A stretch of DNA of 64,000 nt from Sulfobacillus thermosulfidooxidans DSM 9293. GTDB lineage: Bacteria; Bacillota; Sulfobacillia; Sulfobacillales; Sulfobacillaceae. Below, in pieces: positions 60,348 through 63,552 of this stretch. The translations under genes and the position numbers were made by a program. Numbering within the stretch: position 1 is the stretch's first letter; each line of letters starts with the position of its first letter. The stretch is from positions 915,819 through 979,818 of the forward strand of contig NZ_FWWY01000001.1 in assembly GCF_900176145.1 (NCBI RefSeq), given 5' to 3'. The notes under the pieces were generated by a model. It was not told where the DNA came from and made no database searches. It saw only the letters and a program-made list of their open reading frames with translations.

Positions 60348-60977
60348 ATGGCATATCGTTGGTGGATGATTCCTCTTAGCATGATCCTTACCGCAGGTCT
60401 TAGCGTCCCGGCATTTGCACAAAGTCCTACACCGATGCTTCCACAGCCGAACCGGCAACACGAAGATTCTCACCAGGCGTTAGTCATCGACTATGTCAAT
60501 GCCTCCCCGTCTGGACATGGACCTGGATCTCAACAGACATGGCAATGGACAATTAAGATCAGCAATGTCAAAACGCCTGAAAGCACCGGATCATCATTTC
60601 TGAAATTTCGGCTGTTAACCCCGAGTCAGCAACAAAACTTTGTCAACAACAATGATATTGGGAGTCGCCTATTTATTTATCCCATTGAGCCCGCTCAAGT
60701 CCATAATGGAACCATTACCGCAACATTCCAAAGTTCAGCACCTAACCCCGGCAATAACCTCATTGATGCTTCTGAATACTTTGACCATTCGTCATCCGGC
60801 GAAGGGACTGGCAGCAGTGTTGAAGTACGCCAAGAATCTCCTGCCGTGTCCATCACGTCACTACCCTATGGACAATTGCCCGAAGTGCCTCTCGCCAGTG
60901 TGCTACCTGCCATGCTGATTGCAGGATTTGGAATATGGATGTATAAACACCGCAGCACAGTTTCTCCTTTATCTTAA
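60348..60977 (+). CDS. Exported protein with PYGQLPEVP C-terminal sorting signal (substrate 1)
   Basis: A 209-residue protein. A Sec signal peptide ends at AFAQS (about 24-25). The body is a beta-rich domain (WTIKISNVKTPESTGSSFLK, NNNDIGSRLFIYPI). The C-terminus has PYGQLPEVP at 173-181, a 17-residue helix (LASVLPAMLIAGFGIWM) and a basic tail (YKHR). This tripartite end is like PEP-CTERM proteins, which exosortases cut and attach. The same signal ends the protein at 62947. AAAGGAAG lies 7 bases before the ATG. The role of the body is unknown. Confidence 0.82.
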   Translation: MAYRWWMIPLSMILTAGLSVPAFAQSPTPMLPQPNRQHEDSHQALVIDYVNASPSGHGPGSQQTWQWTIKISNVKTPESTGSSFLKFRLLTPSQQQNFVNNNDIGSRLFIYPIEPAQVHNGTITATFQSSAPNPGNNLIDASEYFDHSSSGEGTGSSVEVRQESPAVSITSLPYGQLPEVPLASVLPAMLIAGFGIWMYKHRSTVSPLS

Positions 60978-61239
60978 AAACAGAAGACCAGAGCATAAAC
61001 CCCATGATATCCTGCTCTGATCTCCGGTTTCCATGCATGCCCTAATGTGTTACACACAATGAGCCTAAATCCCCTCAACCCGACAGGATAAGATGGCCAG
61101 AGCGTTCAACCCCATTCATTAGTGACGCTTAAATCGTAAATCACCGAATCACGACATCAACACCTCATCATGTCGCACCAGCATAGCCAAAAAACAACGT
61201 ATGACCGATTTTCACTGATGGGAGGACAACAAAAACATC

Positions 61240-62865
61240 ATGACAGGAACTGAGATTCATATCCATCAAAAACATTCTCTCGGCATTCTATGGATATTGT
61301 GGGCTGTCGTTTCAATCTTTCCTCTATTGGCCTATGCCTCTCCTCTATGGCAGAATGTGTTGGCGGATACTCCCATCGCGGATTTGATTTGGATACCGAT
61401 TCTAGCCCTTGGTTGGGCGACTTGGAGTATTTTGACGGGGGACTTCAACCGCCCCGATGACAGTGAATTAAATGGCATTTTAGGGCTCACTTTAGCCGTT
61501 GTTGTGGGTTTAGCCTTAGTATTAGGACCCGTCCGTTGGCCCACCTTCTTTGTCTTTAATCACGGCGGGCTCCTATTATGGCCTTTATGGATATTAGCCA
61601 TGACCTGGATTTTTTGGGGCATCGAAGCCACCCGCAAGGTGGTTGCCCCATTACTCTACTTGGTATTGGTGTGGCCACCGTTTTTTGAAGCCATTGCTAA
61701 TAAGACGCAAACCGTGTTGGTCAGATGGGCTGTTGCTGTTTTAAATGATTTATCCCATCACGTGTCGTGGCTACATTCTGCTCAAATCGCCGGAACCTTT
61801 GGGGTTAATTACCATGGTCAAAATATTTTGGTCGTCGTAGCTGAAGCTTGTAGTGGGGCTGATAGCCTTGTCGGTGCTGCTATTGTGATGCCCGTGATTT
61901 GGTTTATGATACAAGGCGGGATTGGGAAAAAAGCCTTACTAAGTGGTATTGCCTTATTTGGTGCCTTAATCCTCAATTGGATGAGACTCGCCGTCATCGT
62001 TCTTTGTGTCCATATCCTGGGTCCAGCCATTACCTTTCGCTATATCCATCCCGTTCTAGGATTTATTCTGTTTGCGTTATTGGCGGTCCTGTTAGTCACT
62101 CTCTTAAAACCCTTCAATCTTCACATGCCAAAACTTCAGGTATCCTCTACCGTGCGATTTGCTAGCCTGGGACGGGTAAGTGGAGCCCTCGTTGTATCGG
62201 GTATATTGTTTTTCCTTCTTCGTCCCTTATTTACCCTCCCTCAAGGAACATTTGGCAATCCTAGTCCCGTTAAGCAATATCATGTCGCAACTTTTCTTCC
62301 TTCGCTTCCCCAATTTCAAAAGAGTCCTGCCTATTATGCCAATGAATCCTCGGTTTTGGGTCCTCATTCTGCAACCCAAGCCGATCTCTACGTGATGCCT
62401 CGTTCCGGTAAAGCGGCACTCGTCGAAATGTGGAGCACAGCTAGTGCGTCCCGACTCGCTACCTATGGATTTCATGCTTGCTTGTTGTATCATGGCGATA
62501 ACATTCAAGCCTCCCAGTCATTCCAGCTGGTTCCTGGAGTGGTTGCCACAGCCTATGCGGTTAGCCTTCCCCCAAGTACCGTGGGTGGACGGCGTTCTGT
62601 ATATGTGGATATCGAATGGAGCGATGCGGTGAAAACATCTCAGGGCATTCGCTATCAAAGGTGGTCGATTGCCTCGTTTCCAGCGTCTACGCCTAACCCG
62701 ACTAATCTTCATCCCGCCAGACATCTGAAATCCTTGACCGCGATCCAAGCTATGACAGCGCCTGGCACGCAGGGTTTGTGGCCGCGCAGTATTCTCCACA
62801 CCAAAACGATGTTAATCGCATTAGCGGACGAAATGTTTCATGCCAGTTTAAGAAACCATGCATGA
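61240..62865 (+). CDS. Exosortase-family sorting enzyme with extra C-terminal domain
   Basis: A 541-residue protein. Residues 10-300 hold about nine membrane helices with all three exosortase motifs: EACSGADSL (Cys204), NWMR (Arg249) and FRYIHPVLG (His270), the expected Cys-Arg-His catalytic set near the outer face. After a last helix (about 315-335) comes a soluble region of about 200 residues that recalls the EpsI-type domain often fused to exosortases, but I cannot confirm the match. It is expected to cleave substrates at the PYGQLPEVP signal and pass them to an unknown acceptor. The ATG at 61240 has GGGAGGA 14 bases upstream, longer than usual. Flanked by its two probable substrates. Confidence 0.88.
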   Translation: MTGTEIHIHQKHSLGILWILWAVVSIFPLLAYASPLWQNVLADTPIADLIWIPILALGWATWSILTGDFNRPDDSELNGILGLTLAVVVGLALVLGPVRWPTFFVFNHGGLLLWPLWILAMTWIFWGIEATRKVVAPLLYLVLVWPPFFEAIANKTQTVLVRWAVAVLNDLSHHVSWLHSAQIAGTFGVNYHGQNILVVVAEACSGADSLVGAAIVMPVIWFMIQGGIGKKALLSGIALFGALILNWMRLAVIVLCVHILGPAITFRYIHPVLGFILFALLAVLLVTLLKPFNLHMPKLQVSSTVRFASLGRVSGALVVSGILFFLLRPLFTLPQGTFGNPSPVKQYHVATFLPSLPQFQKSPAYYANESSVLGPHSATQADLYVMPRSGKAALVEMWSTASASRLATYGFHACLLYHGDNIQASQSFQLVPGVVATAYAVSLPPSTVGGRRSVYVDIEWSDAVKTSQGIRYQRWSIASFPASTPNPTNLHPARHLKSLTAIQAMTAPGTQGLWPRSILHTKTMLIALADEMFHASLRNHA

Positions 62866-62946
62866 CGGGGCGTGGTGCCCTACCATTCCAAAAATGTTAG
62901 TGCCCGTGAAAATTAGCGAATCATCTTATGAAAGGAAGTCATACCG

Positions 62947-63552
62947 ATGAAAAAATTCTGGAGTCACCGGTTCGGGAAGCCCTTAACCATTTCAGTCGTC
63001 ATCGCGGGCCTTAGTGTCCTTGTGCTAAATCTGGATTCATTATTTCAGCCTGTTCACATTGCGCATCATAGCTCGTCCCTCTCAAACACGAAATATCCCG
63101 TAACAGACCCCGTTTCCAAGGCGTCAACCGATTACCTATCCTTTGTCGTCCCTGAGAAAGACTTCACCATAACAGAACAGGCCCATCAAGGTATTGCCAC
63201 TTGGATAATGCCTGCAAAGCCGCCATTCACTTCAGGAACCGAAGTTGTCTTGTGGGGATGGCCTAATGCGACCTTAGCTACCTACCTTCATCAATCCCCA
63301 CAAATTCTCGGAAAAACCACTGTCAAAAGTGACTCGCGCACCCTAAGCATCATTTTTGCTTTACCAAGGTCATGGCCTTCTGTACATGAAGTCTTTCAAA
63401 TGGTAGTCATCGAGCCCAATCATCCTAACCTGAAGTCGCCACCATATGGACAACTCCCAGAAGTACCGTGGGCAGCGTTATTACCATTCATCGTGCTTGC
63501 CGGATTTGGCTTCAAATTCTATCATGACGGCAAAAAATCCCCATCAGCATGA
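62947..63552 (+). CDS. Exported protein with PYGQLPEVP C-terminal sorting signal (substrate 2)
   Basis: A 201-residue protein with an N-terminal helix (about 12-29) and no clear signal-peptidase site, then a soluble beta-rich part (DYLSFVVPEKDFTITEQAHQ). The C-terminus has PYGQLPEVP at 166-174, a hydrophobic stretch (WAALLPFIVLAGFGFKFY) and a basic tail (HDGKK). Outside the N-terminal helix and this end it has no clear similarity to substrate 1. GAAAGGAAG lies 8 bases before the ATG. It follows the exosortase gene by 81 bp. Confidence 0.82.
   Translation: MKKFWSHRFGKPLTISVVIAGLSVLVLNLDSLFQPVHIAHHSSSLSNTKYPVTDPVSKASTDYLSFVVPEKDFTITEQAHQGIATWIMPAKPPFTSGTEVVLWGWPNATLATYLHQSPQILGKTTVKSDSRTLSIIFALPRSWPSVHEVFQMVVIEPNHPNLKSPPYGQLPEVPWAALLPFIVLAGFGFKFYHDGKKSPSA

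Follow-up and report, generated by a model that had tools for sequence, protein, structure and literature searches.

Does the exosortase gene that lies between two exported proteins in Sulfobacillus thermosulfidooxidans DSM 9293 represent a sorting system already catalogued, or does it belong to a Gram-positive system with a signal of its own? Little is known about the acceptor and chemistry of exosortases, which have been studied mostly in Gram-negative bacteria, whose outer membrane makes matters more complicated; the host considered here, a member of the Bacillota, has a single membrane. In its 2006 description, PEP-CTERM was confined to outer-membrane bacteria and absent from Firmicutes (PMC1569441), and among the bioleaching bacteria compared in a 2017 study, Sulfobacillus included, Leptospirillum alone was credited with a PEP-CTERM exosortase system (PMC5418355). 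Firmicutes already have a described dedicated exosortase system, formed by XrtG and its Firmicu-CTERM partner (PMC12854382). The analysis of the window, the whole 64,000-nucleotide stretch in which the gene lies, and of related genomes points with a probability of about 85% to a Gram-positive exosortase sorting system that has its own signal class and in which one enzyme serves several substrates. This reading is argued from sequence, namely from the enzyme family, its invariant residues, the architecture of the signal, the co-occurrence, adjacency and co-variation of enzyme and signal, and the polysaccharide genes of relatives.

The exosortase locus

Three window ORFs form a unit at 60348-63552 in which the exosortase is flanked by two exported proteins, referred to here as substrates A and B (Table 1). 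Each substrate starts with a hydrophobic signal sequence and carries near its C-terminus PYGQLPEVP followed by a hydrophobic helix and a basic tail. An earlier note on this DNA had described the three ORFs, and their coordinates and lengths were recovered exactly; the identity of the exosortase, with Cys204, Arg249 and His270 correctly numbered in the expected motifs, and the shared ending of the two exported proteins, on which motif scan, profile and signal sequences agree, also held, and its acidophilic Bacillota host was borne out. Neither substrate matches a family in Pfam or NCBIfam, the two profile sets searched. The shared ending exceeds chance: a DNA pattern coding for P-Y-G-Q-L-P is found at only two places in the whole genome (3.86 Mb), from which the reversed pattern is absent, and the tail profile gives both ends very low E-values (Table 1). 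Upstream of the unit, the window contains a DDE transposase of IS type (PF01609, PF05598; 56878-58353), and the nearest relative, G109, has no such transposase ORF at the corresponding place.

Table 1. Features of the exosortase unit, in window coordinates.
Feature	Position	Strand	Evidence or content
Substrate A ORF, 209 aa	60348..60977	+	ORF call
Substrate A architecture	60348..60977	+	Sec-type signal peptide (MAYRWWMIPLSMILTAGLSVPAFAQ), then soluble region, C-terminal sorting signal
C-terminal signal of substrate A, ITSLPYGQLPEVPLASVLPAMLIAGFGIWMYKHRSTVSPLS	60852..60974	+	tail profile E = 1.0e-15 (tail is one of the 38 that built the profile), motif scan
Exosortase ORF, 541 aa	61240..62865	+	PF09721 62.4 bits, TIGR04178 41.9 bits
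Membrane exosortase domain, residues 24-290	61309..62109	+	PF09721 match 24-290; helical in AlphaFold2 model
Cys204 codon, predicted nucleophile, in EACSGAD	61849..61851	+	position; invariant in 34-sequence alignment
Arg249 codon, in NWMRL	61984..61986	+	position; invariant in 34-sequence alignment
His270 codon, in HPVLG	62047..62049	+	position; invariant in 34-sequence alignment
Enzyme C-terminal beta-rich domain, residues 336-515, conserved YGFxxCLLYHGD	62245..62784	+	model pLDDT 86.6
Substrate B ORF, 201 aa: N-terminal signal sequence, soluble region, C-terminal sorting signal	62947..63552	+	ORF call
C-terminal signal of substrate B, LKSPPYGQLPEVPWAALLPFIVLAGFGFKFYHDGKKSPSA	63430..63549	+	tail profile E = 2.4e-15 (tail is one of the 38 that built the profile), motif scan

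An exosortase outside the curated subfamilies

The enzyme scores above the curated cut-offs of both general exosortase models (62.4 against 25.7 bits for PF09721; 41.9 against 23 bits for TIGR04178). As expected of the superfamily, the Cys, Arg and His residues lie in conserved helices and are invariant across the 34 aligned sequences, and a three-part C-terminal signal on exported proteins co-occurs with the exosortase. When the enzyme was compared with the subfamily HMMs, every cut-off was missed: it scores 45 against 105.55 bits for EpsH, 43.5 against 313 for XrtV, 40.4 against 208 for XrtA and 22.3 against 102.75 for XrtG. Thus neither TIGR03109 nor TIGR02602, either of which would assign it to XrtA/EpsH, nor TIGR03110, the XrtG model, is reached, and the enzyme falls well short of exosortases A, V, W and G and of every other curated subfamily.

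It could be argued that the locus nonetheless encodes XrtG/Firmicu-CTERM, or another catalogued exosortase system, that scores poorly through divergence. The enzyme does share its superfamily with these systems, the exosortase known from Firmicutes is XrtG, and the XrtA, XrtV and EpsH models match the window enzyme at E around 1e-10 to 1e-12. This explanation is nevertheless very improbable, given how far the scores fall under the XrtG, XrtA, XrtV and EpsH cut-offs and that the tails fit none of the curated signal models. Run against the 38 C-terminal signals of the tail profile, these models gave only weak matches to single tails, by 22 model families (best 2.7e-4), the standard PEP-CTERM model not being among those families and the Firmicu-CTERM model TIGR04145 matching none of the 38. 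Since the same tool recovered a true XrtG/Firmicu-CTERM pair in the genome G369 (locus L181; 207 and 116 bits), a tool failure does not account for the negative XrtG result obtained with the window enzyme. The earlier note had considered a new sorting class likely, which stands insofar as no curated model describes the enzyme or its signal, and was overstated insofar as XrtG and Firmicu-CTERM were already known in Firmicutes. A literature search for 'PEVP' together with exosortase found no papers.

The AlphaFold2 model of the exosortase is of good quality, with a mean pLDDT of 83.8, and the C-terminal domain was also modelled alone (Table 1). This domain, for which no Pfam family was found and which is absent from the compact relatives described below, occupies the place that EpsI takes in some exosortases; it is not recognised as EpsI, the model TIGR02914 having no match, fused or adjacent, at the exosortase in this genome. 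A PDB sequence search gave no match, and fold searches with the whole enzyme and with the C-terminal domain returned no credible solved relative; as rmsd is high and TM-scores are low among the top matches, no resemblance in fold is asserted.

Pairing of enzyme and tail across genomes

Homologues of the exosortase, about 25 to 88% identical, occur in 33 of the 154 genomes of the class, which outside the named Sulfobacillus species are mostly fragmented metagenome assemblies. A profile built from 38 C-terminal signals was run on all 154 genomes and, at E<1e-6, detected the tail in 35 of them; below this level there is a gap, beyond which lie weak, mostly partial matches. The exosortase is present in 31 of the 35 genomes with the tail and in 2 of the 119 without it (Fisher's test, p about 1e-25, a value that ignores the relatedness of the genomes and thus overstates the pairing). 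The profile was drawn from exosortase neighbours, a choice that favours co-occurrence; tail matches far from any exosortase, which lie outside its training set, yet have the same genome distribution. In an even sample of 399 genomes across the phylum the tail was found in four, all of which have this exosortase, while the six genomes of the sample with other exosortase matches all lack it. ORFs with this type of ending lie near most exosortases of the family: a tail-bearing ORF is on the same locus for 40 of the 43 exosortases examined, at most 300 bp away in 34 of those 40, and most such ORFs encode an N-terminal signal peptide.

The pairing of signal and enzyme proposed by the earlier note is therefore upheld, whereas the refuting case that it named, a signal without exosortase, is seen in four of the 35 genomes, all of them draft assemblies (G044, G093, G121 and G122). 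In G122 and G044 the tail ORF is close to a contig end and adjoins genes of the same cluster, which leaves G093 and G121 unexplained. The reverse situation, an exosortase without the tail, is found only in G089 and G090.

These distributions also bear on the idea that LPEVP is a variant sortase signal, akin to LPXTG, processed by a class A-F sortase encoded elsewhere, with the exosortase doing something else. The tail shares its three-part plan with LPXTG tails, 6 of the 38 signals weakly match an LPXTG model (best E 0.034), the S. thermosulfidooxidans genome has one sortase (G000:C1:1153304), and a sortase is present in all four genomes that have the signal without the exosortase. Ten of the 35 signal genomes, however, have no detectable sortase (PF04203), five of them being at least 93% complete (G045, G046, G102, G103 and G107), and 45 genomes have a sortase and no signal. 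It is the exosortase, not the sortase, that tracks and adjoins the signal. A sortase was on these grounds rejected as the processing enzyme, and the explanation is very improbable.

On several metagenome contigs (L135, L137, L138, L140 and L141) two exosortases of the family lie near each other, most of them with their own adjacent signal-bearing ORF. A contig labelled Alphaproteobacteria (L150, DAHXKW010000079.1) contains the same exosortase and PETPY substrate as a Bacillota contig (L151) and is probably mis-binned.

Signal sub-types and substrates

The tail class, named PEVP-CTERM in this report, has the consensus [LTV]-P-E-x-P, usually with Y or W next and a further proline about six residues on, followed by one hydrophobic helix and R/K residues. 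Within the class, signal and enzyme vary together. Beside compact exosortases (322-347 aa), and likewise beside the two enzymes of the L064/L069 clade, lie substrates with PETPY or PQTPY, and beside long exosortases those with PEVP, PEAP and similar signals. On the enzyme tree, in which the joining of long branches is uncertain, the signal sub-type requires two changes, against four to seven in 500 label shuffles. One genome, G117, has both enzyme types, each beside its own signal type, and thus provides a natural two-enzyme genome in which specificity could be tested.

The earlier note had described the unit as self-contained, with two dedicated substrates. This description has to be abandoned, as the same genome encodes a third protein with the tail, of 244 aa and with a signal peptide, about 490 kb from the exosortase (G000:C1:1472677-1473411). 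It ends in TLPVGQLPEVPYAAGLPALGLAVVLMSWWSRQRYAKVSKIS and matches at E = 1.9e-14 although it lies outside the profile. With three tail matches in this genome and one to seven in the relatives that have the tail, the window pair cannot be regarded as private. Three substrates surround the exosortase of G109, the nearest relative, a genome in which substrate A has a homologue 61% identical and substrate B one 67.5% identical; homologues of the 184-aa substrate of G109 adjoin the exosortase in most relatives of the genus. A remnant of the latter was sought between substrate A and the exosortase of the window and was not found, the sole significant matches being the other two substrates.

Another explanation takes the C-terminal helix for a mere membrane anchor and the flanking proteins for partners of the exosortase, accessory or inhibitory, rather than substrates. 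It would fit their adjacency by itself and the fact that no experimental processing is known, but it is very improbable, the least probable of the explanations considered, since the tail is also on proteins far from the exosortase, with up to seven matches per genome, co-varies with the enzyme type and conserves a PE and prolines that a plain anchor does not need.

Association with polysaccharide genes

The earlier note also implied that the unit is isolated from polysaccharide biology, which the relatives contradict, as in most of them the exosortase sits among exopolysaccharide genes. A membrane GT2 glycosyltransferase with an MshEN-like domain is present in 23 of 37 exosortase neighbourhoods, frequently accompanied by two proteins that weakly resemble PMT and GH79, respectively, and by a GGDEF-EAL protein. 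Compact enzymes are found in a Pel-like cluster (L063, L065, L066 and L067) with weak matches to PelG and GH114, an HD domain protein, a GT2 and an adjacent substrate of the PETPY type. Neither in S. thermosulfidooxidans nor in G109 does the glycosyltransferase lie near the exosortase; in the former it is about 185 kb away (G000:C1:1161880-1163970), adjoined by homologues of the companions. The link to polysaccharide is thus a property of the family, seen in the gene neighbourhoods of relatives, and would extend to the window copy by inference, its own cluster being so distant. The only sortase found in this genome (G000:C1:1153304-1153663; L156) is about 8 kb from this exopolysaccharide glycosyltransferase cluster.

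The MshEN-like domain is fused to the GT2 (L156:8838-11051, L037:11668-13872), and its usual RLGxxL start is degenerate, being absent from the Sulfobacillus versions read. As this start is missing in three of the four copies read, binding of, or control by, c-di-GMP through the domain is doubtful.

Proposed mechanism

In the proposed Gram-positive exosortase system, secreted proteins would cross the membrane by Sec via their N-terminal signal peptide until the C-terminal helix, with its basic tail, halts them in it. On the outside of the membrane, the exosortase would then recognise PExP and cut near this motif, likely using Cys204, Arg249 and His270, after which the protein may be transferred to a surface acceptor, either a lipid or an envelope glycan, or be released. 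A single enzyme is predicted to serve several substrates, three of them in this genome. The site of cleavage, the choice between transfer and release, the acceptor and any tethering to polysaccharide are inferred parts of the model.

The system may usually serve to position proteins that hold extracellular polysaccharide on the cell, a role proposed because in most relatives the enzyme has a membrane glycosyltransferase and further polysaccharide genes as neighbours; for this tethering part alone the odds are about even. A broader and clearly more tentative idea is that an undescribed Gram-positive branch of exosortases exists in the Sulfobacillia and related Bacillota, with at least two sub-types (a long one with PEVPW and a compact one with PETPY beside a Pel-like cluster), which covalently attaches secreted proteins to extracellular polysaccharide or its lipid carrier without an outer membrane. 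If true, a polysaccharide-linked system with multiple substrates in a single-membrane acidophile would mean that the outer membrane is not needed. The system offers small substrates and one enzyme, and may be relevant to biofilm formation on minerals by bioleaching bacteria. Within the genus, biofilm growth has been documented in assays of S. acidophilus DSM 10332 (PMC13226494).

Comparison with known systems

Sortases and their LPXTG signals provide an analogous Gram-positive plan for C-terminal sorting, carried out by an unrelated enzyme family whose presence the tail distribution does not follow. Among exosortases, XrtV is one of the best-scoring subfamilies by E-value, yet the window enzyme remains far from its cut-off, and the XrtV signal has the motif PEPxxWA, which differs from that of PEVP-CTERM. 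The XrtG/Firmicu-CTERM system is similar in that a Gram-positive exosortase adjoins its substrate and glycosyltransferases; however, XrtG has about 190 aa and its substrate domain about 190 residues, whereas the enzyme described here has 541 aa and is accompanied by a short tail on several different substrates.

Also close to the present system is PEP-CTERM/EpsH, i.e., XrtA and its relatives (Haft 2006, PMC1569441), with which it shares a membrane exosortase with C, R and H, substrates that combine a signal peptide, a PE motif, a helix and a basic end, several substrates per genome and a polysaccharide neighbourhood. It differs from PEP-CTERM/EpsH in its Bacillota host, in the use of PE-x-P and a further proline instead of VPEP, in scores far below the XrtA/EpsH cut-offs and in its own C-terminal domain, which is not recognised as EpsI. 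Exosortases beside PE-type tails (IPEPGVW, IPEFP) are also found in other Bacillota, at L178:6354-9550 (G455) and at L179:8770-11828 and L180:4818-9661 (G258), the first being XrtQ-like by score and the other two without subfamily assignment, which suggests that further uncatalogued Gram-positive exosortase systems probably exist.
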